Origin: Chelativorans sp. J32
GTDB taxonomy: Bacteria; Pseudomonadota; Alphaproteobacteria; Rhizobiales; Rhizobiaceae
Assembly (NCBI RefSeq): GCF_000518985.1
Contig: NZ_JAEQ01000003.1
Location: 1 to 64,000 of the forward strand
Direction of reading: 5' to 3'
Length of the DNA stretch: 64,000 bases
Below are positions 10,209 through 47,643 of the stretch, piece by piece. Every line of letters begins with the position of its first letter. The first letter of the stretch is position 1. The position numbers and the translations under genes were made by a program. Under the pieces are notes generated by a model. It had not been told where the DNA came from, searched no databases, and saw nothing but the letters and a program-made list of their open reading frames with translations.

Positions 10209-10214
10209 AGCCGC

Positions 10215-10273
10215 ATCCATAACGTGGGCAAGTTGTCCACACTTTTAGTAGACGCGTTTGGATGTGCCGTCAA
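10215..10273 (-). promoter_or_regulatory. promoter and composite operator of the dehydratase operon (operator copy 1)
   Basis: On the minus strand: -35 TTGACG (10268-10273), 17-bp spacer, -10 TACTAA (10245-10250), then five bases to the 25-bp operator at 10215-10239. Read on the plus strand the operator is ATCCATAACGTGG followed by GCAAGTTGTCCA. It contains the near-palindrome TGGGCAAGTTGTCCA. A regulator bound here would sit on the transcription start and block the promoter. Seven other copies occur in the window with the same relation to a promoter. Confidence 0.75.
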
Positions 10274-10426
10274 GCATGAGCCGGCCGAGCGGTGTTTTCT
10301 ACCTGGCAGCAGACAAGCCTACTCCATGGCGCCGGCCGTGTCCGGGCGTAGGTGCTGCCACTTGGGGCTATTGGCAGTCCTCACGCCGACCGGTGCGTAG
10401 GGCGCCGCACCGATTGTCCGGGGTAG

Positions 10427-11239
10427 CTATGGAAGTAGAGAAAGTTCCTTCGAAATGGTGGCCGCAGTGTCCTTGACGAGCTTGGCAAACTGCCGGTGCC
10501 TTACCGAGTCATGGCGGTATGTGGGCATGCTCACGCTGACCGTGCCAACCGGCTCGCCATTCCTGTTGTATATCGGGCTGCCAATGCACAGGATATCCGG
10601 CTCGTTTTCCTCGTTATCGACCGCATAACCGCGTTCACGGCTCCGGCGAAGTTCTTCCAGCAGGGAGAATGGATCGGTAAACGTGTTGACGGTATGTTTT
10701 TTGAGATCAAGCGAGTGCAGGATTTCCTGCAGCTTGTCTTCGGGCAATCCTGATAGCCACGCCTTTCCTACGGAGGTGGAGTGCAGTTCCACCTGCGCGC
10801 CAATGCTCGTCTTCATCTGGACGCGGTTGGCGCCCTCGATCTTGTCGATATAGACCATCCGGTCGTTGTTGCTCGGCACCGCCAAGTGCACCACTTCATC
10901 TGTGGCATCCCGCAGCGCTACAAGATGACTGCGCGCAATGGTACGGAGATCCGAGCTTTCCCACGTTTTCGACGCGAGGGCCAGAAGGCGAGGCCCGGGC
11001 CGATACGTGCCGTCTTCCGCGTTCTGCGTCACGAGGCCCTCGGCCATAAGTGCGGCAACCAGACGATAAATCGTGGCGCGCGGATAGGGCGCCTGCTTTG
11101 TCAGCCGGGAAATATCAAGCTGCCCGGGGGCGTCTGCGATAAGCTGCAGTACCGCCATGAACTTCGAAAAAGAAGCTGCTCCCTGCACGTGAGGGGAGCG
11201 GTCCGTGGCTTCCTTCAAAACGCTCTTGGGTCGATTCAT
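10427..11239 (-). CDS. IclR-family regulator, predicted regulon regulator (paralogue A)
   Basis: A 270-residue IclR protein: an N-terminal winged helix (about 20-90, QGAASFSKFMAVLQLIADA then YPRATIYRLVAALMAEGLV) and a C-terminal effector domain (GKAWLSGLPEDKL, DNEENEPDILCIGSPIYN, GTVSVSMPTYR). GGAGAGG precedes the ATG. It is very similar over its length to the IclR at 41157-41966 (shared motifs VQGAASFSKFM, GLVTQ, LHSTSVGKAWLSGLP). Each gene starts about 52 bp from a copy of the 25-bp operator and is divergent from a DUF1330 gene. I infer that one or both bind the operator; the inducer is unknown. Confidence 0.88.
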   Translation of the reverse strand: MNRPKSVLKEATDRSPHVQGAASFSKFMAVLQLIADAPGQLDISRLTKQAPYPRATIYRLVAALMAEGLVTQNAEDGTYRPGPRLLALASKTWESSDLRTIARSHLVALRDATDEVVHLAVPSNNDRMVYIDKIEGANRVQMKTSIGAQVELHSTSVGKAWLSGLPEDKLQEILHSLDLKKHTVNTFTDPFSLLEELRRSRERGYAVDNEENEPDILCIGSPIYNRNGEPVGTVSVSMPTYRHDSVRHRQFAKLVKDTAATISKELSLLP

Positions 11240-11255
11240 ATCGCCTCTCCAGCCC

Positions 11256-11315
11256 TTGACAATGAACAGGACCTATCAGTAATCTATCTGTGGACTATTT
11301 GCCCACATTGTAGAC
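11256..11315 (+). promoter_or_regulatory. promoter and composite operator between IclR A and the DUF1330::dctP remnant (copy 2)
   Basis: Plus-strand promoter: -35 TTGACA (11256-11261), 18-bp spacer, -10 TAATCT (11280-11285), five bases, then the operator at 11291-11315 in reverse orientation (TGGACTATTTGCCCA then CATTGTAGAC). It drives the now-broken DUF1330::dctP gene and probably araD1 behind it. It lies 52 bp from the start of IclR A, so autoregulation is plausible. Confidence 0.75.
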
Positions 11316-11434
11316 GGTACTCGCGGGCGTCCGGGCACATGGGTGCGCCGGAATCACTGTGCCAGCGCGACACTAACGGATCGTAGTTGTTCCACAAGTG
11401 CTTCGCGTCGGATTGTGATATTTGAGGAGAGCAT

Positions 11435-12274
11435 ATGGCCAGGAAGGGCTATTGGGTCGCGATAGTCGATATCGACCACCAAGAGGGATACAAAGATTAC
11501 ATCGCGCTAAACCGCCATGCATTTGAGAAATACGGCGCTGGCCGATGTCGAACCTTGTGGGCGTTGTTCCCGAGTTCATGATCTACGACCTGCCGTTCTT
11601 CTACGACAGCTTCGAGGCAGCGGACGCGGTAATGGATGGCTCCGTTGGCGACCATCTGTTCGAGCGCCTCAAGGAGGGGCGGGTATCGTTGGACTGGCCT
11701 GGTGGGACAATGGCTTCCTCCACATGACCAACGCAATCCGGCCGATCAATACGATCGAGGACATGACGGGGCTGAATATCCGCATCATTCCGAGCCCGCT
11801 GTTCATCGCAACTTTTGAAGCACTTGGGACGAACCCCACGCCGTTTCGCTATCCCGAGCTCCCCGCCGCCCTGGAAAATGGTGAGGTTGACGCGCAGGAG
11901 GCGCCGGTTGGTCTCATTTGCACGAGCAGGTTCTACGAAGTTCAGGATCACCTCGCGCTGACGGGCCACGTCTATACTCCGTTCGTCCTGCTGGCGAGTG
12001 ACCGGTGGTTCAACAGCCTGTCCGATGAAGACAAGGCGCTGGTGCTCGAGGCGGTCGCTGAGACCGAGGAATTCCAGCGCATCCTCTCCCGCAACGACGC
12101 AGACCAGCTGACCGGCTTGCTAAGCAGGAGGGGATGGAGATCACCCGTCCGATACCGAAAGCGCTCGCGGTGCTGCGTGAACGGGTCGCCCTGGTGGTCG
12201 AGCAGTTCAACGAAACGATTGGTGTCGACCTCGTGAACAAGGCGAGATCCGACATGGCTGCCGCCGCTCAGTAA
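11435..12274 (+). pseudogene. deletion fusion of a DUF1330 gene to a TRAP solute-binding gene (dctP)
   Basis: The first 35 codons (MARKGYWVAIVDIDHQEGY, then KDYIALNRHAFEKYGA) are the N-terminus of a DUF1330 protein, paralogous to the intact gene at 40655. At about 11540 the sequence jumps into the middle of a TRAP DctP gene (NLVGVVPEFMIYDLPFFYD, then AWWDNGFLHMTN, then HVYTPFVLLASDRWFNSLS), paralogous to 33037-34032. Two more frameshifts occur near 11682 and 12125 before the terminal KARSDMAAAAQ. The ribosome-binding site (GAGGAG) and promoter survive. The deletion would have removed the rest of DUF1330, dctQ, dctM and the dctP start in one step. No functional product is expected. Confidence 0.85.
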
Positions 12275-14192: not shown

Positions 14193-15317
14193 CTAGAAAA
14201 CCGCCTCCAGGATTTCTGCGTAATCCGACCTGCTGAGCGGGAGCGGGTTGGTCCCATGGCTGTGATCGGCGACCGCACGCTCACAGGTCCAGTCAAACAC
14301 CTCCCTGGTCACGCCAAGTTCGGACAGCCGTGCAGTAATGCCTAGCGAACGGTTGAGCTCGTCGAGAGCGTCTGCCAACATTCCCGGCGCCAATCCGGCA
14401 AGCGCTTCGAGGTTCGCGATCTTCCGGCCCGCGGTAGGGTCCTGTGAATTCCAGCGTATCACCGTCGGCATCAAGATCGCATTCAGCGTCCCATGGTGCA
14501 ACTTTAGGTCCTTGAGGCCGCCAAGCGCATGGCTCAGGGCGTGAACCGCCCCAAGACCCTTCTGGAAGGTCATGCCGCCTTCAAGTGCACCCATCATAAG
14601 GTCCGTTCTGGCATCGAGGTCCGCGCCGTTGTTGAACGCGCTGGGAAGCGCACCCCAGATGCGCTTGAACCCATCGAGGGCAATCGCCTCTGCAGGTGGG
14701 TTGTAGCGGGGCGACAGATAGGTCTCGATGCAGTGGGAAAGGGCATCCAGGCCGGTGGCAGCTGTGAGGAATGGCGGAAGCCCGAGCGTGAGTTCGGGAT
14801 CGCAGATTGCCCGTTTTGGGATGAGATGAGGGCTGATGAAGCCCAGCTTCCGCCCATCGTTCAGCGTCAGCAGCGCGGCGCGCCCAACTTCCGACCCGGT
14901 CCCTGCCGTCGTTGGCACTGCCACGACCGGTGCGACCGATGGCTTGATCCGGGCGACACCGCCAAGGATCGCCGCATATTGCTCGAGTTCTCCCTCATGA
15001 GTGGCCAGCAACGCCACGCCCTTGGCCAGGTCTATTGGGGAGCCTCCCCCGATGGCGACAACGCCATCGCACCTCGCTTCCCGGAACAGGCGCAGCCCGT
15101 CCAGTACGGCGGCTTCCGTGGGATTGGAGGGGACGTCAAGGAACCGGGGCGCATGCCGGATCGGTTCCATGCCCCGATCGAGCAATTCCGCTGCCTGGAC
15201 TCCGTAATCGCTGATGACCAGCGGGGCTCTGATGCCGAGGTCACGCAGCGCGTCCTCCAGTGAGTGGATGGATCCGGCACCGAAATGGATGGTGGTGAGA
15301 TAATTGATGATGTCCAT
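14193..15317 (-). CDS. iron-containing alcohol dehydrogenase, copy 1
   Basis: A 374-residue group III (iron-type) alcohol dehydrogenase. Motifs are [15 protein letters not shown] (nucleotide binding), [15 protein letters not shown], and the metal-ligand region [24 protein letters not shown] and HHGTLNA (Asp and three His). Such enzymes interconvert primary alcohols or hydroxy acids and aldehydes. It starts the ADH-SDR operon behind operator copy 3. Two intact paralogues (20374 and 28765) share the start sequence NYLTT. The substrate is unknown. Confidence 0.9.
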   Translation of the reverse strand: MDIINYLTTIHFGAGSIHSLEDALRDLGIRAPLVISDYGVQAAELLDRGMEPIRHAPRFLDVPSNPTEAAVLDGLRLFREARCDGVVAIGGGSPIDLAKGVALLATHEGELEQYAAILGGVARIKPSVAPVVAVPTTAGTGSEVGRAALLTLNDGRKLGFISPHLIPKRAICDPELTLGLPPFLTAATGLDALSHCIETYLSPRYNPPAEAIALDGFKRIWGALPSAFNNGADLDARTDLMMGALEGGMTFQKGLGAVHALSHALGGLKDLKLHHGTLNAILMPTVIRWNSQDPTAGRKIANLEALAGLAPGMLADALDELNRSLGITARLSELGVTREVFDWTCERAVADHSHGTNPLPLSRSDYAEILEAVF

Positions 15318-15402: not shown

Positions 15403-15457
15403 ATCCACAATATGGATATACTGTCCATACGTTCGCCCCTAGTGGAGTTCTTGTCAA
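15403..15457 (-). promoter_or_regulatory. promoter and composite operator of the ADH1-SDR operon (copy 3)
   Basis: Minus-strand -35 TTGACA (15452-15457), 17-bp spacer, weak -10 GAACGT (15429-15434), then after one base the operator at 15403-15427. On the plus strand it reads ATCCACAATATGG followed by ATATACTGTCCA. The -10 is far from consensus, so the promoter may need an activator or be weak. The transcript leader to ATG 15317 would be about 100 nt. Confidence 0.7.
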
Positions 15458-15541
15458 GGCGCTCCTTGCCGAAAGAAGCCATCTGGCCCAAGCGAAATCC
15501 GCCTTACGGTCAAGATGCATCCCGGTCCTGCATTCCATAAT

Positions 15542-15745
15542 ATGGTCAGATTGAGTAAAGCCGCACTGGCACTCTTGGCTGCGGTTGCGATTGGTGTTGG
15601 TGCTTCCACTGTCGCCTGCGCACAGGAGCATCCTGTGCTGGCCTGGACGCCGAAGCCGGCTGAGCCAGCGCGCTATATTGCGTGCATCAGCCGCACACGA
15701 AGTTAAGCGCAGTGCTGGCGAGCCATGAGGGAGAGGCTACGGGCG
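15542..15745 (+). pseudogene. 5' remnant of an exported cupin gene
   Basis: It starts MVRLSKAALALLAAVAIG, a signal peptide ending ACAQ, followed by VLAWTPKPAEPARY. After a one-base frameshift it continues as HQPHTKLSAVLAS. This matches the intact cupin gene at 31716 (VNAWTPKPLEPAPY, then HKPHTKLSEVLAD). Homology stops near 15745. The copy retains only about 60 codons and cannot make the two cupin domains. It is divergent from ADH1, with operator copy 3 between them. Confidence 0.8.
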
Positions 15746-20373: not shown

Positions 20374-21501
20374 CTACATCACGCTTTCAAGGATCGCGGC
20401 ATAATCGTCCGCGTTAAGGCTGCGGGGGTTCGTTTGATGACTGTGATCGGCAAGCGCACGCTCGCATGTCAAAGGGAAGACGTTCCGTGTGACGCCCAGA
20501 TCGGAAAGTTTCGCTGGAATTCCCAGCTCACGGTTCAGCCTATCGAGCGCATCAGCCAATGACGTCCCGGACAGCGAGGCCAGCGCCTCCAGGTGCGCAA
20601 TCTTTTTCGCGGCAGCAGGCACGTTGGCATTCAGGCGCAGGACCGGCGGCATCAGGATCGCGTTGAGCGTTCCATGATGCAGTTTGAGTTCTTTCAATCC
20701 GCCAAGCGCATGACTTAGCGCATGGACCGCGCCGAGCCCTTTCTGGAATGTCAGCCCGCCCTGGAGCGCGCCCATCATCAACTCGGTTCGCGCATGGATA
20801 TCCGACCCGTTCGAGAATGCCACGGGCAACGCGTTCCAGATGCGAACGAAGCCATCGGTTGCGATCGCCTCCGCAGGCGAGTTGAAGCGCGGTGAAAGAT
20901 AGGTCTCAATGCAGTGCGACAAGGCATCGAGACCGGTCGCGGCCGTCAGGCTCGGAGGCAGACCGAGCGTCAGCTCCGGGTCACAGATGGCGCGACGGGG
21001 AATGATATATGGGCTGATGAAACCCAGCTTGCGGCCGTCGTCCAGCGTAATGAGGGCGGCGCGCCCCACTTCGGATCCGGTTCCGGCCGTCGTAGGCACC
21101 GCCACCAACGGTGCCACCGCGCTGGTAATCTTCGGAATGCCACCGAGGATGGCGGCATATTGCTCAAGCCTGCCATTGTGGGTCGCGAGAAGCGCGACAC
21201 CTTTGGCAAGATCGATCGGTGAGCCGCCTCCGATTGCGACGACACCGTTGCATCCAAACCGGCGATAGACATCCACCGCTGCCATAACGGCGCTTTCGGT
21301 GGGGTTTGTCGGAACATCGAGGAAGGTCGGAGCGGAACCGAGAAACTGTATGCTCGGCGTGTCAAGCAGCCCAGCGGCCCTGATGCCATGGTCGCTGATC
21401 ACCAATGGTCGCGTTACGCCAAGCTCGCCAAGGGCATCCGGTAAGGAACTGAGAGCTCCCGGTCCAAAATTGATCGTGGTGAGATAGTTGATGATGTGCA
21501 T
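20374..21501 (-). CDS. iron-containing alcohol dehydrogenase, copy 2
   Basis: A 375-residue iron-type alcohol dehydrogenase, intact. It has [60 protein letters not shown] and HHGTLNA. ATG 21501 (MHIINYLTT) aligns with the start of copy 1 and is preferred to ATG 21513. First gene of a probable operon with the SDR remnant and tctCBA, behind operator copy 4. Because its SDR partner is dead, the pathway step must rely on the intact SDR elsewhere or no longer need it. Confidence 0.88.
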   Translation of the reverse strand: MHIINYLTTINFGPGALSSLPDALGELGVTRPLVISDHGIRAAGLLDTPSIQFLGSAPTFLDVPTNPTESAVMAAVDVYRRFGCNGVVAIGGGSPIDLAKGVALLATHNGRLEQYAAILGGIPKITSAVAPLVAVPTTAGTGSEVGRAALITLDDGRKLGFISPYIIPRRAICDPELTLGLPPSLTAATGLDALSHCIETYLSPRFNSPAEAIATDGFVRIWNALPVAFSNGSDIHARTELMMGALQGGLTFQKGLGAVHALSHALGGLKELKLHHGTLNAILMPPVLRLNANVPAAAKKIAHLEALASLSGTSLADALDRLNRELGIPAKLSDLGVTRNVFPLTCERALADHSHQTNPRSLNADDYAAILESVM

Positions 21502-21768
21502 GTATATTTCCACGTGATGTAATCATTTTGCAGACGTGACGGCCGTTCGAAGCATCCGCTACTGCCGCGGAATCTATCCACAACGACCGCATAGCAACTT
21601 CTTCATGGCATTAGATGCAGCCTGCCGCTGAATGTTCGCGGCCAAAGGCACCCGCCACAGCGGAACGTGGCATTTCAAAGCCCACAAGATTTCCTCCCTT
21701 TTCGACCACGGCCAACTGAGCACTCGCCCGGTGATTTCCTCCTAACCGCACGAAGATGATCGTTATTG

Positions 21769-21827
21769 TTCAGCATGTGGTCTATATGTCCATATATGAT
21801 GGTTGCCTGTCGTGGACGGCTTGTCAA
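21769..21827 (-). promoter_or_regulatory. promoter and composite operator of the ADH2-tctCBA operon (copy 4)
   Basis: Minus-strand -35 TTGACA (21822-21827), 17-bp spacer, weak -10 AACCAT (21799-21804), five bases, operator 21769-21793. On the plus strand it reads GTTCAGCATGTGG followed by TCTATATGTCCA. This is the most diverged of the eight copies, but its orientation and spacing match the others. The leader to ATG 21501 would be about 280 nt. No gene is recognised in the rest of 21502-22084. Confidence 0.55.
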
Positions 21828-28764: not shown

Positions 28765-29892
28765 TTAGAAAACGGTCTCAAGGATCGCGGCGTAGTCTTC
28801 CTTGCTCAGCGAACGTGGATTTGTGGGATGACTGTGGTCTGCGATGGCTCGCTCACACACCCAATCGATGACGTGCCGGGGGACCCCCAGTTCGGACAAT
28901 CTGGGCGTGATGCCCAGACTACGATTCAACCCGTCCAGCGCATCTGCGAGCGTTGTATGTTCAAGCCCCGCCAGGCGCTCGAGGTGGCCGACCTTCTGAG
29001 CCACGGCTTCAACTTCCACGTTCCACCGAAGGACGGTCGGCATCAAAATGGCGTTGAGCGTCCCATGATGGAGCTTAGCCTCCTTGAGGCCGCCCAATGC
29101 ATGGCTAAGCGCATGGACGGCTCCAAGCCCCTTCTGGAATGTCATGCCCCCTTCGAGGGCACCCATCATGAGTTCGGTCCGCGCCTCTGCGTTCGCGCCA
29201 TCTGCGTAGGCGACAGGCAAAGCCTTCCAGATGCGTTGGAAGCCGTCGGTGGCAATTGCCTCTGCAGGCGGATTATAACGGGGGGAAAGGTACGTCTCGA
29301 TACAATGCGACAGTGCGTCGAGTCCTGTCGAGGCCGTCAGAGCCGGGGGGAGCCCCATTGTCAACCCTGGGTCGCAGATCGCCCTGCGCGGGATGAGGTA
29401 GGGGCTGATAAATCCGAGCTTGCGGCCGTCATCCAGTGTGATCAGTGCCGCGCGCCCAACTTCGGACCCGGTGCCGGCCGTGGTCGGGATGGCCACGAGC
29501 GGCGCCACCGCGCTAGTGATGCGTGCCACCCCGCCCAGGATCGCTGCATAGTGCTCAAGTGCACCATCATGCGTGGCGAGCAGCGCCACGCCCTTGGCCA
29601 AGTCGATCGGAGAGCCCCCGCCAATCGCCACCACCCCATCGCAGTCGCCTTGCCTGTAGAGCTCGAGACCAGCAGCAACCGCGCTCTCAGTCGGGTTGGA
29701 GGGAACGTCCAGAAAGACTGGCGCCGTTTTCAGAAACTGGAAATCCAGGCGTTCAAGCAGACCAGCAGATTTGATACCGTGATCACTGATCACAAGAGGG
29801 CGCGATACGCCGAGTTCGCGCAAAATTCCCGCTAATGACCCGGCCGCTCCAAACCCGAAAGTGATGTTTGTAAGGTAGTTTATATTGTTCAC
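28765..29892 (-). CDS. iron-containing alcohol dehydrogenase, copy 3
   Basis: A 375-residue intact iron-type alcohol dehydrogenase with [68 protein letters not shown] and HHGTLNA. The start is taken as GTG 29892 (NNINYLTN) because AAGGAG lies nine bases upstream and this matches the N-terminus of copies 1 and 2; a longer frame to 30030 would run through the operator. The gene stands behind operator copy 5. Three intact near-identical enzymes in one window suggest gene dosage or divergent substrates. Confidence 0.88.
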
Positions 29893-30004
29893 GCTGGTAC
29901 GCTCCTTGATATTCGCCCACATGCATCGCTGCAACCACCGGCTGTCATCAGGCACGTTCGCGCCGCCGGTGGGTACCAACGAGCGAGCTCCTTGGAACCA
30001 TTGA

Positions 30005-30058
30005 GTCCATAATATGGACATTTTGCCCAAGCATTAGGCGGAACTCCGCAATTGTCAA
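30005..30058 (-). promoter_or_regulatory. promoter and composite operator of ADH3 (copy 5)
   Basis: Minus-strand -35 TTGACA (30053-30058), 17-bp spacer, -10 AATGCT (30030-30035), directly followed by the operator at 30005-30029. On the plus strand it reads GTCCATAATATGG followed by ACATTTTGCCCA. It holds three half-sites (GTCCA, TGGAC, GCCCA), the first two forming a perfect palindrome around ATAAT. Confidence 0.75.
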
Positions 30059-31578: not shown

Positions 31579-31640
31579 TTGACAATCTGCCAATAGTCTG
31601 CCCATTATGAGTTGTTGGACATCGTGTCTATATTATGGAC
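31579..31640 (+). promoter_or_regulatory. promoter and composite operator of the cupin-dctP operon (copy 6)
   Basis: Plus-strand -35 TTGACA (31579-31584), 18-bp spacer, -10 CATTAT (31603-31608), seven bases, operator 31616-31640 in reverse orientation: TGGACATCGTGTCTA then TATTATGGAC. Its reverse complement lines up with copy 5 at most positions, including GTCCATAATAT. The cupin GTG start lies 76 bp further on. Confidence 0.72.
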
Positions 31641-31715: not shown

Positions 31716-32705
31716 GTGAGAAATTTATGGAAAGGCGGATTGGCTATCGCGGGTGCGATAGCGATAAGCGCGATGGGGATGACGGGGGCTCTTGCACAAA
31801 CCGTGAATGCTTGGACGCCAAAGCCGTTAGAACCGGCGCCATACGTGAAAGGGCATAAGCCGCATACGAAGCTGAGTGAGGTACTCGCCGATAAAGACCC
31901 CTTCAAAAGTTGGACCCACAAAGTTGTCGATGATAAACACCTGAGAGCTGAATATGTGGGTTTGAAGGTAGGCGATGCGACGAGGCCCGTACTGGTCGCG
32001 GATCACCAAACCGCCTTTATTGTCTGGGAGGGTGAGATTGAAGTCACCATCCAGGGTGTGGAACCGTTTGTAGCCACCAAGGGTTTCATGGTGCGGGTTC
32101 CCTTCCGCCGGGAGTTCTCACTGAAGAACGTGGGTTCGACGCCGTCGCTGCACTTTGCAATCTGGAATGCAAACGCTACCATTCTTTACCCGCAAGCATC
32201 AGCAACTTTGCCAAAGCCACCGAAGGCTCAAGGGTGGTACCTGAGTCGACTTGATGCCCCCGATAGCTTAACCCGACAGCCTGAGCCTATTTTCTACGAC
32301 TTCCTTGCTCAGCCCGCAGCCGGTGCATTCGTAAGCGATGATCGCATGTTCGTTAACCGCATCCGCGGCCAAGCGCGCAATTGTGACCCTCAGCCCGCCA
32401 CGAACATCGGACATTTCCACGTCGATTATGCTGAGTTCTGGTTCATCATGGAAGGTCAGATCAGCTACAACATCGAAGGCTTGCCCTTCTTTGTCGCAGA
32501 GCCCGGCGATATCGTCTATGTCCCGGCCGGCCGCTGGCACTCGGCGGCGAACCATTGTCCGGGGTTCGACACGCGGATTGCCATCAACGGCTATCCGAGG
32601 GGTTCGCATCACTGGCCTGTTGCCGCCCAACCGCCAGTACCCCCAATCGAAGGAGGGCGTCCTCCCCACGCAGGTCGTCCTCCCCAGCACGCCCAAAACC
32701 CCTGA
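31716..32705 (+). CDS. exported double-cupin protein
   Basis: A 329-residue protein with signal peptide MRNLWKGGLAIAGAIAISAM, cleaved after ALAQ. Two cupin-like halves follow: about 85-150 (AFIVWEGEIEVTIQG, then MVRVPFRREFSLKN) and about 225-290 (IGHFHVDYAEFWFIMEGQIS, then VAEPGDIVYVPAGRWHSAAN). The second half has the metal-ligand pattern HxH...E...H; the first lacks clear histidines. It is probably periplasmic and may be a metal-dependent isomerase, oxygenase or binding protein; the reaction is unknown. GTG start with AAGGAGGAGA. A truncated paralogue is at 15542. Followed by a dctM remnant and dctP. Confidence 0.8.
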   Translation: MRNLWKGGLAIAGAIAISAMGMTGALAQTVNAWTPKPLEPAPYVKGHKPHTKLSEVLADKDPFKSWTHKVVDDKHLRAEYVGLKVGDATRPVLVADHQTAFIVWEGEIEVTIQGVEPFVATKGFMVRVPFRREFSLKNVGSTPSLHFAIWNANATILYPQASATLPKPPKAQGWYLSRLDAPDSLTRQPEPIFYDFLAQPAAGAFVSDDRMFVNRIRGQARNCDPQPATNIGHFHVDYAEFWFIMEGQISYNIEGLPFFVAEPGDIVYVPAGRWHSAANHCPGFDTRIAINGYPRGSHHWPVAAQPPVPPIEGGRPPHAGRPPQHAQNP

Positions 32706-32774
32706 TCTCAAACTGGTCTAGTGGTGGCCCGCCCGCATCGCGAGAGCGGGCCGCTCAGGTGTCGCACACCTTTG

Positions 32775-32987
32775 GTGAAGACGGCAGGCATCGACCCGGT
32801 GTTTTGGGGTTCTGTTCATCCTGACTGCAACGATCGGCATGATCACACACCGCCAGTGGGCGCCGTCCTCGACACGATGATCAGTACAGGCAACATGCCC
32901 TTCGCTTCAGTGGACAGGGGTGCGATGCAGTTCCTCTTGGCCGAACCGGCCATTCTCGTACTGCCGGTCCTGTTTCCTCATTCGTGA
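32775..32987 (+). pseudogene. 3' remnant of a TRAP large membrane subunit gene (dctM)
   Basis: After a frame change the plus strand reads AGIDPVFWG, ATIGMITPPVGAVLDT and GAMQFLLAEPAILVLPVLFP, matching the end of the intact DctM at 38612 (AGIDPVYFGVIFM, VGMITPPVGTVLNT). Only about 70 codons are left. It lies directly upstream of dctP, preserving the ancestral order dctM-dctP. Confidence 0.78.
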
Positions 32988-33036
32988 CAGGACCGGTGTC
33001 CTGGTTCCCGTGAACCGATTTCTGGGAGGTTAAACT

Positions 33037-34032
33037 ATGAAAGTATTGCTTCTAACGGCGGCAGTTCTAGGAGGGCTTCTGGCTGCCGCTCCGGCCATGG
33101 CTCAGAATGCGCGCTTGGGCTACGTGCCTACGGAAGACCATCCGGTCGGACAGGCTTCGCGCCATTTTGCGGAGCTGGTGGAAGAAAAGACGGGCGGGCG
33201 CATCAAGATCGACACGTTCGGCAATGGCGTGCTCGGCAGCGAGCCCGAGATGCAGGCGTCGGTTCAGGCCGGCTTCATCGATATCATGGTTGGCCCCACG
33301 CCCAACCTGGTCGGCGTCGTTCCGCAATTCATGATCTTCGACCTTCCGTTCTTCTATAAGGACTTCGCTGCGGCCGATGCCGTCATGGACGGCGAGGTCG
33401 GCGAGCAGCTGTTTGCGCAGCTCAAGGAAAAGACCGGCATCGTCGGACTGGCTTGGTGGGATAACGGCTTCCGCCACATGACCAACAAGATTCGCCCCGT
33501 CAACACCGTGGAGGATATGGCTGGGCTCAACATCCGGGTTATACCTAACCCGTTGTTCATTGCGACCTGGACGGCCTTGGGCACCAATCCGACGCCGCTC
33601 CCTTGGCCTGAGCTTTACAGTGCCCTCGAAAACGGCGCCGTCGACGGCCAAGAGACGCCGTACGCCCTTATCTACACCGCCAGGTTCTATGAGGTGCAGT
33701 CCCATTTGGCTAAGACAGGGCACGTCTATACGCCCTTTGTTCTTCTTGCCAGCCAGAAATGGTTTGGAAGCCTCTCCGAGGAAGACAAGGCAGCCGTCAT
33801 GGAAGCTGCGAAGGAATCGGCAGCCTTCCAACGGGAGCTTTCTCGCAAGGACGCAGAGAATTTGGAGGCGGAGCTTGAGGCGAAGGGTTTCAAGATTACC
33901 CGACCCACGCCTGAAGCGCTCGCAGCCATGAGCGAACGCGTTGCGCCTGTCGTGAAAGAGTTCAGCGAAAAGATCGGGGTCGATCTGGTCGAGAAGGCGC
34001 GCGCCGATATGGCCGCGGTTGCCAAGCCGTAA
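33037..34032 (+). CDS. dctP: TRAP transporter solute-binding protein DctP
   Basis: A 331-residue periplasmic binding protein with signal peptide MKVLLLTAAVLGGLLAAAPA (cleavage after AMAQ). DctP features are HPVGQASRHFAELVEEKTGG, FIDIMVGPTPNLVGVVPQFM, LNIRVIPNPLFIATW (usual ligand Arg) and ENGAVDGQETPYALI. It delivers an organic acid, probably a sugar acid, to DctQM. Its membrane partners are 4.6 kb away on the other strand (38612-40431); the local dctM is a remnant. GGGAGG precedes the ATG. It is followed by a 22-codon remnant of araD1. A fused remnant of a paralogue lies at 11435. Confidence 0.93.
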   Translation: MKVLLLTAAVLGGLLAAAPAMAQNARLGYVPTEDHPVGQASRHFAELVEEKTGGRIKIDTFGNGVLGSEPEMQASVQAGFIDIMVGPTPNLVGVVPQFMIFDLPFFYKDFAAADAVMDGEVGEQLFAQLKEKTGIVGLAWWDNGFRHMTNKIRPVNTVEDMAGLNIRVIPNPLFIATWTALGTNPTPLPWPELYSALENGAVDGQETPYALIYTARFYEVQSHLAKTGHVYTPFVLLASQKWFGSLSEEDKAAVMEAAKESAAFQRELSRKDAENLEAELEAKGFKITRPTPEALAAMSERVAPVVKEFSEKIGVDLVEKARADMAAVAKP

Positions 34033-38611: not shown

Positions 38612-39889
38612 TCAATGGAACCAGCCCGCCGGCACGGTCACCAATGCCGGGAACAGAACCAGCAGCAAAATGAGGATCATCTGGGCCACAAGGTACGGCA
38701 TGGCACCCTTTGTGGCCGCCTCCATTGAAACCCCGCTGATTCCGCACACTGTGTTGAGGACCGTCCCGACAGGGGGCGTGATCATGCCGACCGCGTTGAC
38801 CATCATGAAAATGACCCCGAAATAAACCGGGTCGATCCCGGCCGCATTGACGAGCGGGATGAGGATGGGCACGAGAATGGTGATGCAGGGCGCGAAATCG
38901 AGCGCCGTGCCGACGACGAAGACTGCCAGAACGATCATACTCATCAACAGAATCGGCGAGTCGATGAATGGATCGAGGAGACTGACGAGTTGGGCGGGCA
39001 TATTGGAGATCGTCAGCATGAAGCCGGAGATCATGGAAGCCGCGACCAACAGCATGATCACTGCTGTCAAGCGCCCGGCGGCGAGTAGCGCGTCGTAGAG
39101 CAGCCGCGGTGTCAGCTCGCGATAGACGAACACCCCCACGAACAGTGCATAGGCGGCGGCAACGACGCCGGCCTCCGTGGGGGTGAAGATGCCGAACCGC
39201 AGTCCTGCCAGGATAATCACTGGCATCATCAACGCCCAGCCCGCGGTCATGATGGTTTTCGGGAGGTCCCTGCGCGGCAGTTTGGGCCGGACCGTCGCCG
39301 TTTCCTTTTTGGCGAGGAACCACCAGGCGATCATGAGGCTCAACCCCATCATGAACCCTGGCACGATTCCGGCGAAGAACAGGCCGACGATGGAAATGTT
39401 TGCGGTGACGCCCAGAATGATGAACCCGACAGACGGCGGGATCACAGGAGCGATAATGCCTGTCGCTGCCATCAAGCCCGAAGCTCGACCCATGTGGTGG
39501 CCCGCTTCCCGCATCAGGGGGACCAGCATGACCGCTAGTGTCGCAGTGTCCGCAATTGCGGATCCGGAGACGCTGGCAAGCACCAGGCCCGTGCCGATGA
39601 CCACGTAACCGAGGCCGCCACGTACGTGCCCGACGATCGCTAGGGCCACGTTCACGATGCGGCGGGAAAGGCCGCCGGCGTTCATGAGCTCGCCCGCAAT
39701 GAGAAAGAACGGGATCGCCATCAGCGGATAGCTGTCCGCGCCATTGACCAGCCGCTGCGCGAGGATCTGAGCATCCAGATTTCCCATCAGCAACATCATC
39801 GCAACGCCTGACAGCATCAGAGCGAAGGCAATGGGAATCCCGATGCTCATTGCGCCGAGGAGGGAACCTATGAAGACCAAGCCGCTCAC
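38612..39889 (-). CDS. dctM: TRAP transporter large membrane subunit DctM
   Basis: A 425-residue membrane protein with about 12 segments, the sodium-coupled transport subunit. Family motifs are IPFFLIAGELMNAGGLSRRI, LVLASVSGSAIADTATLAVM, GLMAATGIIAPVIPPSVGFI and, near the end, GMITPPVGTVLNTV. The start is a GTG at 39889 overlapping the TGA of dctQ (GTGA), with CGGAGA upstream. It forms an operon with dctQ and the DUF1330 gene. No binding protein follows; the intact dctP at 33037 is the likely partner. Confidence 0.93.
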   Translation of the reverse strand: MSGLVFIGSLLGAMSIGIPIAFALMLSGVAMMLLMGNLDAQILAQRLVNGADSYPLMAIPFFLIAGELMNAGGLSRRIVNVALAIVGHVRGGLGYVVIGTGLVLASVSGSAIADTATLAVMLVPLMREAGHHMGRASGLMAATGIIAPVIPPSVGFIILGVTANISIVGLFFAGIVPGFMMGLSLMIAWWFLAKKETATVRPKLPRRDLPKTIMTAGWALMMPVIILAGLRFGIFTPTEAGVVAAAYALFVGVFVYRELTPRLLYDALLAAGRLTAVIMLLVAASMISGFMLTISNMPAQLVSLLDPFIDSPILLMSMIVLAVFVVGTALDFAPCITILVPILIPLVNAAGIDPVYFGVIFMMVNAVGMITPPVGTVLNTVCGISGVSMEAATKGAMPYLVAQMILILLLVLFPALVTVPAGWFH

Positions 39890-40431
39890 GGTGCTTTCTC
39901 CGAAATGAGCTCGGGGGAAACGACCGGTAGCGGCTCGACGTGCTCTACTCCCGACCAGGGTGCCGGCAGGACGCCACGCAGCGAGCGCCACAGATCAAGA
40001 AGGAGAACCAGAGCCATCAGGATGGCAGCGGCGAGCCCCGCGGCGTAGATGGCGCCGACGGGAATTCCCGACAGTGCTTGGACGTTGTCCCATTCGATCA
40101 CGGTGAGTGACCAGCTGCCTTGTGCCAGGAGCCAGCAGCACCAAAGCATCAGGCCGTATGAGACAAGAAAGCAGGCGAAGCGCGCCGTGCGGGGCAGTCG
40201 GACAACCAGCGCCTCGACGCCGAGATGCGCGCCCTTGGCCAAGGCCACCACCGATCCCAGAAAGATGACCCAGACAAGGACCACTCGCGAGACTTCAACG
40301 GCAAAGGGGATGCCTGAACTGAAGCCATACCGCAGCACGACATTTGTGAAGACCAGTAGGCTCATGACGGCCATGCCGACGACTACGAAGATGTCAAAAG
40401 CCTTGAAAAGCCACTGCAACGGTGTGGTCAT
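39886..40431 (-). CDS. dctQ: TRAP transporter small membrane subunit DctQ
   Basis: A 181-residue protein with four hydrophobic segments (FDIFVVVGMAVMSLLVFTNV; VVLVWVIFLGSVVALAKG; FACFLVSYGLMLWCCWLLAQ; IYAAGLAAAILMALVLLLDL) and the typical VNVVLRYGF-like NVVLRYGFSSGIPF and KGAHLGVEALV motifs. ATG 40431 has GGGAG upstream; a longer frame from 40545 has no signal. Its stop overlaps the start of dctM. It is required for TRAP complex formation. Confidence 0.9.
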   Translation of the reverse strand: MTTPLQWLFKAFDIFVVVGMAVMSLLVFTNVVLRYGFSSGIPFAVEVSRVVLVWVIFLGSVVALAKGAHLGVEALVVRLPRTARFACFLVSYGLMLWCCWLLAQGSWSLTVIEWDNVQALSGIPVGAIYAAGLAAAILMALVLLLDLWRSLRGVLPAPWSGVEHVEPLPVVSPELISEKAP

Positions 40432-40654
40432 AACCGCTCCCAAAAAGGCTATGCGCGCATGCAACAACCCGCGCCCCATTTTGACGAGGATTCTGAGGCC
40501 GTGAGCGGGGCGCTTCCAGTATGCTGGCCGCGCATAAACACCCAATCGCTTGATGAATGCCTGTTTTGCTCAGCCGGTCGAACAGCACGCAAGGGATGAA
40601 CGTAATGATCCCTCCGATCAGTTTGATAGGAGGTCTCAAGCGATGCTTTCGGCG

Positions 40655-40945
40655 TCAGATACCTTCCACCACGGCCAGATGTGCCTTGGAATACTTCTCT
40701 CGGACTTTGATCGCCTTCTGATACTCGGGAGAGTTGTAGCAGGCGAGGGCAGTCTCGTAGTCCTTGAACTCGATTACCGCCAGGCGGTTCGCGTCAGGGC
40801 CCTCCATAACCTGGCTCGTTCCCGCGCGAACGACAAAGGTCGCCCCATATTTGTCGAACGCCGCCTTGTTCAAGGCAATGTACTCCTTGTACCCCTCCTG
40901 GTCTGCAATATCGACCATCGCAACCCAGTATCCCTTTTTGGTCAT
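40655..40945 (-). CDS. DUF1330 protein
   Basis: A 96-residue single-domain protein of the dimeric ferredoxin-like (alpha-beta barrel) fold: KKGYWVAMVDIADQEGYKEY, then YGATFVVRAGTSQVMEG, NRLAVIEFKDYETALACYNS and KAIKVREKYSKAHLAVVEG. DUF1330 members have no generally proven reaction. AGGAAG precedes the ATG. It is the first gene of the DUF1330-dctQ-dctM operon (224 bp gap to dctQ) behind operator copy 7, so it probably acts on the imported substrate. Its first 35 codons recur in the fusion at 11435. Confidence 0.87.
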   Translation of the reverse strand: MTKKGYWVAMVDIADQEGYKEYIALNKAAFDKYGATFVVRAGTSQVMEGPDANRLAVIEFKDYETALACYNSPEYQKAIKVREKYSKAHLAVVEGI

Positions 40946-41079
40946 TTGCTTCCTCTCCCTACATAAATTCCCGCGCCCTCTCGCGGAGGATACGGGAGGT
41001 CCTTTCGTTCACCTTCGGTGCACGAGCGTTGCCGTTGATCCTGCTCGATCACACGACTAGGACCGAAACAAGAACGCCT

Positions 41080-41137
41080 GACTACAATATGGACAACTTG
41101 TCCAAGGACGTGTAATCCCACCATGTCCCGTTGTCAA
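41080..41137 (-). promoter_or_regulatory. promoter and composite operator between DUF1330-dctQM and IclR B (copy 7)
   Basis: Minus-strand -35 TTGACA (41132-41137), 17-bp spacer, -10 TACACG (41109-41114), four bases, operator 41080-41104. On the plus strand it reads GACTACAATATGG followed by ACAACTTGTCCA. It contains TGGACAACTTGTCCA, a perfect palindrome except for the central base. IclR B starts 52 bp to the right, the same distance as IclR A from copy 2. Confidence 0.78.
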
Positions 41138-41156
41138 GCTTGCAAGGAGATGTGCC

Positions 41157-41966
41157 ATGAGCCTGAGCGACCTCCAGGACGGAGCCGATGCAAGGGCTCC
41201 TATTCACGTACAGGGAGCCGCCTCGTTCTCGAAGTTCATGACGGTGCTGCGGATCATCGCGGATGCCCCCGGAACACTGGACATCGCCCAACTGACAAAG
41301 CGCGCGCCATTTCCCCGAGGGACGGTCTACCGCCTCGTTTCGGCGCTCATCGCGGAGGGACTCGTCACGCAATCAGGAGAGGGCGGAACGTTTCGCCTGG
41401 GGCCGAGCCTCCTCCAGCTTGCTTCCAAGACCTGGGAGGACTTCGACTTGCGGACGATCGCGAGGGATTTTCTGGTATCGCTCCGCGACGCAACGGATGA
41501 AGCCGTGCACCTTGCGGTGCCCAGCCACAACCGGATGGTCTACATAGACAAGTTGGTGGGCACCAGCAGGGTTCAGATGAAAACCAGTATCGGCGGCCAG
41601 GTTGAACTTCACTCCACATCCGTGGGTAAGGCGTGGCTGTCGGGACTGCCGGACCAGCGGCTGTTGGAAGTCATCAAAAGCCTGGATATGACGCGCCACA
41701 CGGCCAAGACGTTCACGACCCTCGAAACGCTGTTCGATGAATTGAAGCGGACGCGCGAACAAGGGTTCGCATTCGATGACGAGGAGAACGAGCCGGATAT
41801 CCGCTGTCTAGGCAGCCCGATCTTCAATCGTTCGGGGGAACCGATTGGAGCGGTAAGCATCAGTATGCCCGTGTATCGGCACGACGAGCGGCGCCACGAG
41901 CTCTGCGGAAGGCTGGTGCGTCAAACGGCGAAACTGATCAGTGCCGAATTGTCCAGGATGGTGTAG
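41157..41966 (+). CDS. IclR-family regulator, predicted regulon regulator (paralogue B)
   Basis: A 269-residue IclR protein with an N-terminal winged helix (QGAASFSKFMTVLRIIADAP, then FPRGTVYRLVSALIAEGLVT) and an effector domain (LHSTSVGKAWLSGLPDQRL, DDEENEPDIRCLGSPIFNRS, GAVSISMPVYRHDERR). It is a close paralogue of IclR A (10427). It is divergent from DUF1330-dctQM with operator copy 7 between them. The two paralogues may recognise the same operator and cross-regulate; which is dominant cannot be told. Confidence 0.9.
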   Translation: MSLSDLQDGADARAPIHVQGAASFSKFMTVLRIIADAPGTLDIAQLTKRAPFPRGTVYRLVSALIAEGLVTQSGEGGTFRLGPSLLQLASKTWEDFDLRTIARDFLVSLRDATDEAVHLAVPSHNRMVYIDKLVGTSRVQMKTSIGGQVELHSTSVGKAWLSGLPDQRLLEVIKSLDMTRHTAKTFTTLETLFDELKRTREQGFAFDDEENEPDIRCLGSPIFNRSGEPIGAVSISMPVYRHDERRHELCGRLVRQTAKLISAELSRMV

Positions 41967-42057
41967 CGCCCGCGCGCGCCACCGCGTACGGCGGGTCGCG
42001 CCACGCGCCGGCACTATTCGATGACGGTACCGAGCAAATCGATTTGGAGAGACAGAG

Positions 42058-42639: not shown

Positions 42640-42640
42640 G

Positions 42641-45341: not shown

Positions 45342-45367
45342 GCCAAGTCGTGCAGAGGGGGATTCTG

Positions 45368-45470
45368 GATCATTTCACTATTTCACGGAAACACTGAAAT
45401 GATCTAAGCCTTGTTCCTACGCATTCCCGACGGAAACCGGTCCCCACTTTTCCTGGAATTGCTCTAACCG
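45368..45470. repeat. palindromic intergenic repeat of rhizobial type
   Basis: The perfect 10-bp inverted repeat GATCATTTCA / TGAAATGATC (45368-45377 and 45395-45404) with a 17-nt loop is followed by GCATTCCCGACGG and CTTTTCCTGGAATTGCTCTA. I recall this combination from intergenic regions of Mesorhizobium-like genomes. It lies between the convergent DUF3299 and gspE genes and may help end both transcripts. No gene is recognised in the rest of 45471-45618. Confidence 0.6.
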
Positions 45471-45618
45471 CCTGGCCGCGGGTCAGAGGCTCGCACGAGC
45501 GGCGAACTGATGGTGTATCCACTTTCGACGTCTCTGCGCCGTCACCATCACGAGCTGCACCTTCCGGTCGCCAGCAAAAAGCATTCCGGTTACGCTTGCC
45601 GACTGACAGATGATGCGC

Positions 45619-47304
45619 TCAGCGAAACCCGGTGACCCTGAGCACCTCCGCCGGGGAGGTGAGACCTTGCCCTGCCTTCCTGGCGCCGTCATGCGACATC
45701 GTGCTCATGCCCCGCTGCAGCGCGAGCGCTTCGATCCTGGAGTGGTCTGCCCCTTGTGAAGCGAGCTCGGTGATAGCCTCATCGAAGACCAGGATCTCGA
45801 ACACTGCGATGCGGCCTCGATACCCCGTGCCGTTGCAACGGCCGCAGCCAACTGCGTTGAACACTTTCTGGCCTGGGGAGAACCCCACGGCCTGGTAGCG
45901 CAGGTCGGAGGAGAACGTCTCGGCCGAAAGAATTCCTTCCTGCTTGCAGTGATCGCAGAGCCTACGCAACAGGCGCTGGGAGATGATGCCGCGTACTGCG
46001 CCGACCAGCAGATAGGTCTCGACACCCAGGTCGCGCATACGGGTGAAGGCTGCCGCCGCGGTGTTCGCGTGGACGGTGGTGAGGACGAGGTGTCCGGTGA
46101 GCGCTGCCTGGACGGCGGCCCGCGCCGTCTCGCCGTCGCGTATCTCACCGACCAGAATCACGTCGGGATCCTGGCGCACGAACGTCCGGATCGCGGACGA
46201 GAAGGTGATGCCGATCGCCGGGTTGATCTGCGACTGCACGATGCCGGGAATCTGGTATTCGACGGGATCCTCGATGGTCACGATCTTGCGGCCGGGATCG
46301 TTGAGCTTCGAGAGGGCGGCCGCGAGCGTCGTCGTCTTGCCGCTGCCAGTCGGGCCAGCGACGGCGATCATTCCGTGGGTGTGCTCAAGGAGCCGGTTCA
46401 GCGTCCGCCGTTCTTCCTCATCCAGGCCCACGCCCGCGAAATCCAGCAGGACGCTGTCGCGGTGCAGGATGCGCATGACGACGGTCTCGCCATGGATGGA
46501 GGAGAGAGTGGCAACGCGCAGTTCGACTTCGCGGTCCCCGATGGGAAGGCGCATAGCACCATCCTGAGGCTTGCGGCGCTCGGTGATGTCGAGGCCGGCG
46601 AGAACCTTGATGCGCGACACGATCGCATCGGCTATTTCGTGCGGCGGCGCAGGCATGATCCGCAAGACGCCGTCGATGCGGAACCGCATCACGAGTCTTC
46701 CGCGCATCGGTTCCAGGTGGATGTCGGTCGCCCTCAGGTCGAGCGCGCGCCTGAAGATGTCGTCTACGACAACCACGACCGGCGCGCCGCTCGCGAGATC
46801 CCTAAGGCTTGCGATAGCCGCTTCGGAGGTTGCTCCTTCGCCGGTGGCCTGGGCAACGTCCTGGGTGCCGGAAAGGCGTTCCAGGCAGGATTCCAGATCG
46901 GGTGCGGGAACCACGCAGACCTCAGCGTCACCGTCGAGAACGGATCGCAGCGCCTCTATCGGGTCCGCATCTCCGGGGTGGAGAACCCCTATGACCGCGC
47001 TCCCGTCCGGTGCCGTGAGCGGCGCGATCCAGTTCTCCGCAAGAAATCGGTTTGAGAGATTCTGCGCGACGGGCCTGTAGTCCGCGAGCTGCTGCCGGTC
47101 CAGAAGTCGCACGCCATAATAGGACGACAGGAAGCCTGCGAGAGCATCGGCGTCGACGATCTGCGCTTCGATCAGGCGGTGCAGGTCGGAGGCTCGCGAG
47201 GCCGTAGCTTCACCGAAAAGGCTCCGTATAGCCTCGCGGCTCGCCAGACCGGCATCCGCCATGGACGACAAGAGTGAGTGAATTTCTGTATGCTGTAGGT
47301 TCAT
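45619..47304 (-). CDS. gspE: type II secretion ATPase GspE
   Basis: A 561-residue cytoplasmic ATPase that powers pseudopilus assembly. It has an N-terminal MshEN-like domain (about 40-150), then DIHLEPMRGRLVMRFRIDG (Asp box region), Walker A VAGPTGSGKTTTLAA, IVTIEDPVEYQIPG, Walker B VILVGEIRDGETA, the LTTVHAN His box and a zinc tetracysteine motif (CDHC ... CGRC). The gene is alone on the minus strand, apart from gspDOK and divergent from gspL-J. Operator copy 8 lies in the divergent region and points toward this gene. A small upstream frame overlaps its ATG. Confidence 0.94.
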   Translation of the reverse strand: MNLQHTEIHSLLSSMADAGLASREAIRSLFGEATASRASDLHRLIEAQIVDADALAGFLSSYYGVRLLDRQQLADYRPVAQNLSNRFLAENWIAPLTAPDGSAVIGVLHPGDADPIEALRSVLDGDAEVCVVPAPDLESCLERLSGTQDVAQATGEGATSEAAIASLRDLASGAPVVVVVDDIFRRALDLRATDIHLEPMRGRLVMRFRIDGVLRIMPAPPHEIADAIVSRIKVLAGLDITERRKPQDGAMRLPIGDREVELRVATLSSIHGETVVMRILHRDSVLLDFAGVGLDEEERRTLNRLLEHTHGMIAVAGPTGSGKTTTLAAALSKLNDPGRKIVTIEDPVEYQIPGIVQSQINPAIGITFSSAIRTFVRQDPDVILVGEIRDGETARAAVQAALTGHLVLTTVHANTAAAAFTRMRDLGVETYLLVGAVRGIISQRLLRRLCDHCKQEGILSAETFSSDLRYQAVGFSPGQKVFNAVGCGRCNGTGYRGRIAVFEILVFDEAITELASQGADHSRIEALALQRGMSTMSHDGARKAGQGLTSPAEVLRVTGFR

Positions 47305-47513
47305 CGAATGTATCTGTCGGAGTTGACCCTGAGCACAATGGATGCCGGCTTGCGTATGCCAACTCCGGCTATGGGTTCAACGCGCAAAGCGGTCTGCCTG
47401 ATGTGACGTTCAGCCACCGGCGGTTCCTTCGAAAGCTGCTCCAGAGCAGAAGGCAGTGCTGTATAGTTGTCAAGCGCCACTGCCCTTCTCTTGGCGTCGC
47501 CGAGCAGCATCAT
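47301..47513 (-). CDS. small hypothetical frame upstream of gspE
   Basis: A 70-codon frame (MMLLGDAKRRAVALDNYTAL, then VAERHIRQTALRVEP, ending NSDRYIR) whose TGA overlaps the gspE ATG (ATGA), a sign of translational coupling. No domain is recognised and the ribosome-binding site is poor (GAGCCAG). It could be a short leader peptide or a decayed gene end whose stop happens to touch gspE. Confidence 0.35.
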   Translation of the reverse strand: MMLLGDAKRRAVALDNYTALPSALEQLSKEPPVAERHIRQTALRVEPIAGVGIRKPASIVLRVNSDRYIR

Positions 47514-47589
47514 CTGGCTCACGCTCGGCTCCCCCACCCCCGCACGCGGCGCATCTGCGTGCCTGCCGTATCGTTCAGATCCTGCTATA

Positions 47590-47643
47590 ATCCACAAAAT
47601 GGGCAATTTGTCCACATTTCTAACTGAGGGACTTGTCCGACAA
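47590..47643 (-). promoter_or_regulatory. composite operator in the gspE/gspL divergent region (copy 8)
   Basis: Operator 47590-47614 reads ATCCACAAAATGG followed by GCAATTTGTCCA on the plus strand. In the orientation used by the other copies it belongs to a minus-strand promoter: -35 TTGTCG (47638-47643), 17-bp spacer, -10 GAAATG (47615-47620), directly abutting the operator. That promoter would serve gspE. A perfect TATAAT (47586-47591) on the plus strand overlaps the operator and could serve gspL-J, but has no good -35. Confidence 0.62.

Follow-up and report, generated by a model that had tools for sequence, protein, structure and literature searches.

Which protein reads a 25-bp element that recurs eight times within one catabolic gene cluster, and is transcription blocked or promoted when it does so? 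This question is raised by a 64,000-nucleotide stretch of Chelativorans sp. J32, called the window here, to whose positions all coordinates below refer. In a first-pass annotation the element had been described as a composite operator defining a hidden regulon. From the sequence comparisons presented here it is very probably the landing site of a locally encoded repressor of the IclR family, namely the product of the gene at 41157, perhaps shared with its paralogue at 10427. Read toward transcription from the neighbouring TTGACA, all eight copies, on either strand, have the arrangement TGGACA-N3-TGTCCA-N5-TGGAY. They are located as follows:

10215..10239, minus strand, operator copy with -35 TTGACG at 10268-10273 and -10 candidate TACTAA at 10245-10250; precedes the genes for an ilvD/edd-type dehydratase, a 2-hydroxyacid dehydrogenase and an aldehyde dehydrogenase
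11291..11315, plus strand, operator copy with -35 TTGACA at 11256-11261; between iclR (10427, minus strand) and a DUF1330 remnant, a truncated dctP and gguC (plus strand)
15403..15427, minus strand, operator copy with -35 TTGACA at 15452-15457; precedes Fe-alcohol dehydrogenase 1 and an SDR gene
21768..21792, minus strand, weak operator copy with -35 TTGACA at 21822-21827; precedes Fe-alcohol dehydrogenase 2 and tctCBA
30005..30029, minus strand, operator copy with -35 TTGACA at 30053-30058, the gap to the operator being 23 bp; precedes Fe-alcohol dehydrogenase 3
31616..31640, plus strand, operator copy with -35 TTGACA at 31579-31584; precedes the cupin gene and dctP, with orthologous sites in relatives
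41080..41104, minus strand, operator copy with -35 TTGACA at 41132-41137 and -10 candidate TACACG at 41109-41114; between iclR (41157, plus strand) and DUF1330-dctQM (minus strand)
47590..47614, minus strand, operator copy in the gspE/gspL gap

Seven of these positions had been given exactly by the first-pass annotation, while the eighth copy lies at 21768-21792 and not at 21769, a register which yields 15 mismatches. The literal pattern proposed there is fitted exactly by none of the sites, but six of them match it with at most three mismatches where 0.00 are expected (mismatches are 3 at 10215, 4 at 11291, 1 at 15403, 6 at 21768, 1 at 30005, 1 at 31616, 2 at 41080, and 2 at 47590). A search of the window with a looser consensus found seven sites against 0.07 expected by chance. 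A matrix built from the seven strong sites scores them at 34-38 bits, and the next non-overlapping match in the window reaches 14.2 bits at 15533. This candidate (15533-15557; E 0.31 with the site model described below) was set aside because no TTGACA is in reach. The copy at 21768 scores 13.8 bits and is the weakest, as had been claimed. In order-1 random sequences of 64 kb, matches of 13.8 bits occurred at 0.075 per sequence, and none had a perfect TTGACA in reach in 40 trials. As a plasmid of Rhizobium sp. Q54 carries a 31.5-bit site ahead of genes orthologous to Fe-alcohol dehydrogenase 2 and tctCBA, the copy at 21768 looks decayed but true and is probably real.

For comparison with relatives a set of 23 sequences was used (the window, L001, and L036-L056; 475,083 bases), in which the matrix of the seven window sites found 70 separate sites of at least 20 bits. 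Counting identical 25-letter sites once left 66 for a column profile, and 63 of these entered alignment A1, from which L051:3393 and both sites of L054 were left out. The site model has 25 positions and was built from 63 sites. Its search of the host genome scored 150 of 1429 first-look candidates, a scope which holds for all results with the model in this genome. Eleven matches were obtained at E<=10, each at or overlapping the sites or at 15533, and there were none elsewhere in the genome. In the same 4,697,151 bases the pattern occurs seven times at no more than one mismatch, always inside the window. A match with two mismatches at C2:405795 was missed by the model and is regarded as chance. 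The hidden regulon of the first-pass annotation thus stands as to its one common operator, but a genome-wide extent was rejected on the lack of model matches beyond the cluster. As far as the model sees, regulon and cluster are the same. Among 15 other genomes of the host genus two carry the IclR gene (G013 and G015), with seven and four clustered pattern matches, respectively; the 13 without it show at most two scattered ones.

The cluster contains two candidates for the binding protein:

41157..41966, plus strand, IclR-family regulator of 269 amino acids with Pfam domains IclR_C and HTH_IclR; favoured as binder by its co-occurrence with the sites
10427..11239, minus strand, second IclR-family regulator, 270 amino acids, 68-69% identical to IclR_41157

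In both proteins the HTH_IclR and IclR_C domains exceed the Pfam cut-offs. A common sample from the host's family, comprising 247 genomes with the host among them, was searched both with the IclR_41157 protein and with the site model. The IclR protein was present at E<=1e-60 in twelve genomes, and a site at E<=0.01 was found in exactly these twelve (12/12, versus 0/235 of the genomes lacking the protein); the next best genome had a site at E 0.031. In all twelve a site is 52-106 bp away from the IclR frame that was matched. The chance of such an overlap would be about 1e-20 if the genomes were independent, which they are not, though the twelve come from 10 of the 109 genera. Seven of the twelve, the host among them, are represented in the model's training set either directly or by apparent near-twins, as judged from IclR sequences that recur under other ids; the remaining five (G074, G109, G113, G139, and G248, at 52-56% identity) are without close kin there. 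By itself the seven-site matrix of the window places a site beside the IclR gene in 20 of 24 loci (at least 13 named genera), so the matrix scan of related genomes that the first-pass annotation had proposed as a check shows the sites recurring beside orthologous IclR genes. In a wider sample of 397 genomes of the order, ten have the IclR protein at E<=1e-50 and six of these ten a site at E<=0.05; E-values are rough here, and about 19 chance matches are allowed for at this threshold. The recognition helix (F/Y)PR(G/A)TxYR(L/I)(V/A) is kept in homologues of at least 51% identity with a matched N-terminus. It differs in those of the genome's other IclR proteins that show it, and near the 12 loci of these other proteins there is no site of 11 bits or more. 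Co-occurrence, proximity and the kept helix all point to an IclR protein as the binder, as the first-pass annotation had supposed.

Ownership of the sites by another local regulator is highly improbable. The LysR-type gene at 27322 would be a choice, as it lies within the cluster, but its best match in 22 related loci is only 27% identical, yet 21 of the 22 have sites, and the IclR gene is present at each of them. A closer call is whether both IclR paralogues use the operator or only one, while the other stands by or, with another effector, acts as an antagonist. This is compatible with repression by an IclR protein and is a real possibility, if not the one we favour. The two share 68-69% of their residues, and on the divergent side of both genes the gap holds an operator, at 41080 for iclR_41157 and at 11291 for iclR_10427. 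In a tree of 51 IclR rows, from which duplicate, partial and very distant rows and those of fewer than 200 residues were left out, IclR_10427 is placed outside the remaining 21 rows of its clade, with support of 84/44, which is weak. Against a division of labour stand the recognition helices FPRGTVYRLV and YPRATIYRLV, which are nearly the same, so shared sites are the simpler guess.

How binding would affect transcription can be approached from the position of the sites relative to promoters. At 12 of the 70 places matches overlapped and the strand was chosen by TTGACA; the other 58 are free of that choice. A perfect TTGACA stands 20-37 bp before the first box in 61 of the 70 sites, and on the other side in none; even five of its six letters occur there, at the same distance, only once. 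With TTGACA at this distance on one side, the operator should cover the transcription start, as expected for a repressor. The gap between TTGACA and operator is nearly constant for each orthologous promoter. It amounts to 27 bp in 14 of the relatives' 19 DUF1330 promoters, the others having 25-28; to 23 bp in 8 of 12 promoters of dehydrogenase 3, the other four having 24-27; to 30-31 bp in 11 of the 12 that precede dctP or the cupin gene, with 28 in the last; and to 27 bp in 6 of 11 2-hydroxyacid dehydrogenase promoters, where the others range over 26-33. Allowing spacers of 15-19 bp, the operator begins 0-8 bp after the best -10 candidate in all 61 predicted promoters with a perfect TTGACA.

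In the window, with spacers limited to 16-18 bp, 0-7 bp separate the best -10 candidate from the start of the operator, just as first described. The same orientation to the promoter, then claimed for every site, holds for seven of the eight. The -35 is a perfect TTGACA in six, TTGACG at 10215, and only TTGTCG (four of six letters) at 47590, where the promoter is weak and a TGnTATAAT on the opposite strand points the other way. As an outcome adverse to regulation the first-pass annotation had named a motif found as often inside genes as upstream of them. Genes that match a window gene make up 224,214 bases, and in none of them is any of the 70 sites found at a depth of more than 150 nt; three sites extend into the opening bases of the dehydrogenase 3 gene, whose called start is over-long. 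The fixed side of TTGACA and the place just after the predicted -10 suit repression at the transcription start, and this placement supports repression over activation, the starts being predicted.

The same geometry bears on two other explanations. PcaU and PobR are reportedly activators. An NCBIfam model for PcaR/PcaU/PobR is among the matches of IclR_41157 (133 bits, below the cut-off of 284.75), and PcaU and PobR are named with three-box sites in PMC8222616. By this likeness the IclR protein might bind the same sites as an activator or dual regulator. The operator, however, follows the -10 candidate by 0-8 bp in the 61 promoters with perfect -35 elements, downstream of usual activator sites. 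Activators usually bind upstream of such a position, and activation is therefore unlikely here. The other explanation takes the sites for chance occurrences or for a repeated element, mobile or structural, that has no regulatory role; it could appeal to the several copies in one region and to the IS66 transposase and recombinase nearby. With 0.07 sites expected by chance, no model match elsewhere in the genome, and the register to TTGACA and to orthologous genes kept across families, it is already contradicted by the conserved positions and its probability is negligible.

Some observations weigh against repression by the local IclR protein at these sites. The -10 hexamers are poor, with a mean of 3.3 of six letters over the 61 promoters. 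The copy at 21768 was not listed by the 63-site model at E<=10 in the scan of its own genome. Four of the 24 IclR loci are without a 14-bit site, namely L056, where the IclR match lacks the N-terminal part, and L057-L059 with 28-35% identity. Four of the ten IclR-bearing genomes of the order sample, at 41-47% identity, have no match at E<=0.05, and such a match occurs in 6 of the 387 genomes lacking the protein, twice at E=0.006. Among the 13 same-genus genomes without the IclR gene, six show one or two scattered matches at no more than two mismatches. The second IclR gene of G268 (L071) has no 13-bit site within 1.5 kb, and one about 1.8 kb away.

Repression by the IclR protein could work as follows. 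The operator consists of three boxes of alternating direction, TGGACA-N3-TGTCCA-N5-TGGWCA, and starts just after the putative -10. Bound there, possibly as the tetramer suggested in the first-pass annotation, the IclR protein would lie over the transcription start and keep RNA polymerase from initiating. Release would come about through a small-molecule effector, for which the pathway's substrate or one of its intermediates is the probable candidate, and would switch on the transporters (TRAP and Tct) together with the dehydratase, the three Fe-alcohol dehydrogenases, the SDR, and the cupin protein.

In the gap between iclR_41157 and DUF1330-dctQM a further promoter is proposed:

41035..41063, plus strand, proposed iclR promoter facing the operator; TTGATC at 41035-41040, a spacer of 17 bp, TAGGAC at 41058-41063

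The operator is the most conserved stretch of this gap, with 16 of 25 columns invariant over 18 sequences, and TGTCAAG, which contains the -35 of dctQM, is likewise invariant over these 18. By eye, TTGATC is kept in 15 of the 17 orthologous regions of alignment A2 and the -10 in fewer; the arrangement TTGATC-17 bp-TAGRAC toward iclR is kept in most orthologues but not ahead of iclR_10427. Two promoters thus seem to face each other across a single operator, and IclR binding at 41080 could silence iclR and DUF1330-dctQM at once. This would explain autoregulation with a single site.

For PcaU the third box is reportedly needed for binding. How well the boxes of the present operator are kept was counted in 65 sites of the clade with 69-100% IclR identity. 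At least five of six letters are found for box 1 in 64 sites, for box 2 in 57, and for box 3 in 31, the latter reaching four of six in 65/65. In the flanks, which serve as background, 4 of 1820 hexamers have five letters and 47 of 1820 have four. The bases between boxes 2 and 3 are conserved (YATTR), and the three between boxes 1 and 2 hardly are. A fourth box is rare in this clade: before box 1, on the promoter side, it occurs with five letters in 1/65 and with four in 6/65, and after box 3 in 1/65 and 4/65, respectively, which barely, if at all, exceeds background. A TtgV-type arrangement, with a second complete palindrome some 20 bp from the first, is therefore not that of this clade.

More distant homologues are different in this respect. 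In nine sites of homologues with 51-57% identity a fourth box of at least four letters overlaps the -10 in five, and is found there or after box 3 in seven. At 41-50% identity (Caballeronia, Paraburkholderia, Cupriavidus, Variovorax, Pantoea, and Neorhizobium) there are paired GTCCA-N5-TGGAC-like palindromes about 20 bp apart. By eye such pairs are present in seven of the eight loci L074-L081, five of these with a matrix match of at least 10 bits there; L081, at 40.6% identity, has none. A pair precedes the cupin gene in all four loci annotated there (L075, L077, L079, and L080). The tandem palindromes of L074-L080 (Burkholderiales, Pantoea, Neorhizobium) apparently belong to another regulon of the same IclR lineage. 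Because distant homologues keep GTCCA-N5-TGGAC, the N5 palindrome would be the ancestral unit. The first-pass annotation had parsed the operator into a 15-bp palindrome plus a third half-site, which is still possible but the less likely history. GTCCA-N5-TGGAC is better taken as the deep-rooted unit, with TGGACA-N3 as an extra box on the promoter side, so that the clade would have kept a palindrome and a half.

Three-box sites of alternating direction have been predicted for 32 IclR orthologous groups in a survey which cites PcaU, PobR, and HmgR and raises the question of how IclR proteins pair on DNA (Suvorova & Gelfand 2021, PMC8222616). The window sites share with them the alternating boxes and the third box on one side. 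By its letters TGTCCAYATTRTGGACA of the window, the pair of boxes 2 and 3, fits the group 1 subgroup TGT-11-ACA, whereas the outer pair has N3 between ACA and TGT and the published group 2 N1-2. The window operator differs from these three-box operators by standing after the -10 and at many promoters of one cluster. For TtgV and other operators with tandem palindromes the same source gives 18-22 bp between centres and ties the arrangement to tetramer binding; this resembles the homologues of 41-50% identity with their palindromes about 20 bp apart, and is unlike the clade of the window, where a fourth box is rare. In its table 1 the E. coli IclR operator TGGAAATNATTTCCA is a 15-bp palindrome beginning with TGGA as in the window, and IphR has an extra downstream half-site ATGGAC, an added half-site like that of the window; the inner bases differ in both, and both regulators are of another orthologous group than the window IclR. 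Similar in placement is the footprint of PheR, an IclR-type repressor, which extends from -21 to +23 (PMC13273656), the window promoters being predicted ones.

A further likeness concerns BlcR of Agrobacterium, an IclR-family protein which governs blcABC for the use of gamma-butyrolactone and 4-hydroxybutyrate and which is a solved relative of IclR_41157 (3mq0). According to PMC6402643 it represses as a tetramer and is released by 4-hydroxybutyrate or the corresponding lactone, and the targets in the window include three genes above the cut-off for 4-hydroxybutyrate dehydrogenase. BlcR is distant (E 1.5e-16) and only the ninth-ranked solved relative by score, so that orthology was not found by this comparison. 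The window cluster also differs by its dehydratase, GguC, and two kinds of transporter. In the open-licence literature, a scope to which the supplement of PMC8222616 and subscription papers do not belong, no earlier report of this regulator, operator or regulon was found. The kind of switch predicted here is already known in the IclR family, and the window is a fresh and unusually clear example of it.

The site in the gspE/gspL gap needs separate treatment. It has the top score on the window's own matrix, and the opposite strand carries TGnTATAAT at 47583-47591 on the gspL side, the last two bases of its TATAAT (47586-47591) being inside the operator. In Phyllobacterium sp. 21LDTY02-6 (L038) and Falsochrobactrum ovis (L050) pntA begins 67-68 bp downstream of the same site, and pntA and then pntB lie between gspE and the site (by Pfam for L038). 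In L037 pntB adjoins gspE and the contig ends before the site. Nitratireductor aestuarii (L042) has no pnt genes, and ilvD starts about 80 bp from the site on the other strand, the side on which L050 has an ilvD remnant. From the window pnt and ilvD are gone, with a few codons resembling the start of pntA joined to the end of pntB; this reading rests on DNA alignment A3 and a few residues, and no significant protein match to pnt turned up in the window, the stretch being too short. The genome has a PntB homologue at C13:171174 (88%) with no model match near it. The first-pass annotation had the site serve the gspE/gspL gap, a doubtful assignment. As relatives have pntA or ilvD at this place, it is best read as a leftover from catabolic genes among secretion genes, and the secretion genes were set aside as unproven targets, though the operator may still act on gspL. 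Around it, at 34581-53408, the TRAP and iclR genes are intermingled with zrgA, ABC/MacB, and DUF3299 genes and with type II secretion genes (GspK-, D-, E-, M-, and F-type by Pfam; types L and G were assigned from position and sequence). In the Chelatococcus and Bosea loci, ABC paralogues apart, no match to the genes of this secretion stretch was found within the 10-kb flanks.

The remaining assignments of sites to genes made in the first-pass annotation mostly held. Features behind the operators include the following:

8424..10220, minus strand, dihydroxy-acid dehydratase family by family match; its true start should be further in, as the operator overlaps the called start
14193..15317, minus strand, Fe-alcohol dehydrogenase 1, above the NCBIfam 4-hydroxybutyrate dehydrogenase cut-off
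20374..21513, minus strand, Fe-alcohol dehydrogenase 2, above the same cut-off
28765..30030, minus strand, Fe-alcohol dehydrogenase 3, above the same cut-off, with a called start too far upstream
31716..34032, plus strand, genes for a cupin protein and, past an intervening dctM fragment, for the binding protein DctP
38612..40945, minus strand, DUF1330, dctQ, and dctM (TRAP transporter)

Looking intact are the dehydratase with 2-hydroxyacid and aldehyde dehydrogenases, the three Fe-alcohol dehydrogenases with SDR or tctCBA, GguC, cupin with DctP, and DUF1330-DctQM. Judged by family names, this enzyme set would suggest breakdown of a sugar acid or hydroxy acid; no lactonase was seen in the part of the window's open reading frames that was scanned. 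The assignment failed at 11435, where 35 residues of DUF1330 match are left and dctP is truncated. There, at 11435-12236, the DUF1330 match overlaps a DctP lacking its N-terminal part, so that a second TRAP operon is broken and its operator intact. With its operator letters known, the unannotated catabolic cluster becomes one testable regulon, and a simple reporter would suffice to look for its effector and substrate. The natural series from two-palindrome to three-box operators in one IclR lineage bears on how these proteins pair on DNA.

Between 20116 and 33000 broken copies of SDR, alcohol dehydrogenase, ilvD, 2-hydroxyacid dehydrogenase, and dctM genes (and, by eye, aldehyde dehydrogenase) stand beside intact dehydrogenases, and these broken neighbours indicate a cluster in flux. 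The cluster with its sites is found in Mesorhizobium, Bosea, Chelatococcus, Aminobacter, Devosia, and others, and the IclR tree mixes families, with Bosea and Chelatococcus placed among Mesorhizobium, which suggests transfer of the cluster between families. Tentatively, and with the balance of probability against it, one might picture a portable regulon, in which some eight promoters, a pair of regulators and catabolic modules sharing a private three-box operator move together between families. Modules such as pntAB, ilvD, tctCBA, and the type II secretion set would be lost and gained and operators left behind as scars. The three-box form would have come from a tandem four-box operator once the promoter-side box was ceded to the -10 region, giving a compact operator-promoter cassette that is used face to face between iclR and dctQM. 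Beside the cluster, at 1553-4624, there are an IS66 transposase and a serine recombinase with Resolvase and Recombinase domains, which would fit a mobile history.

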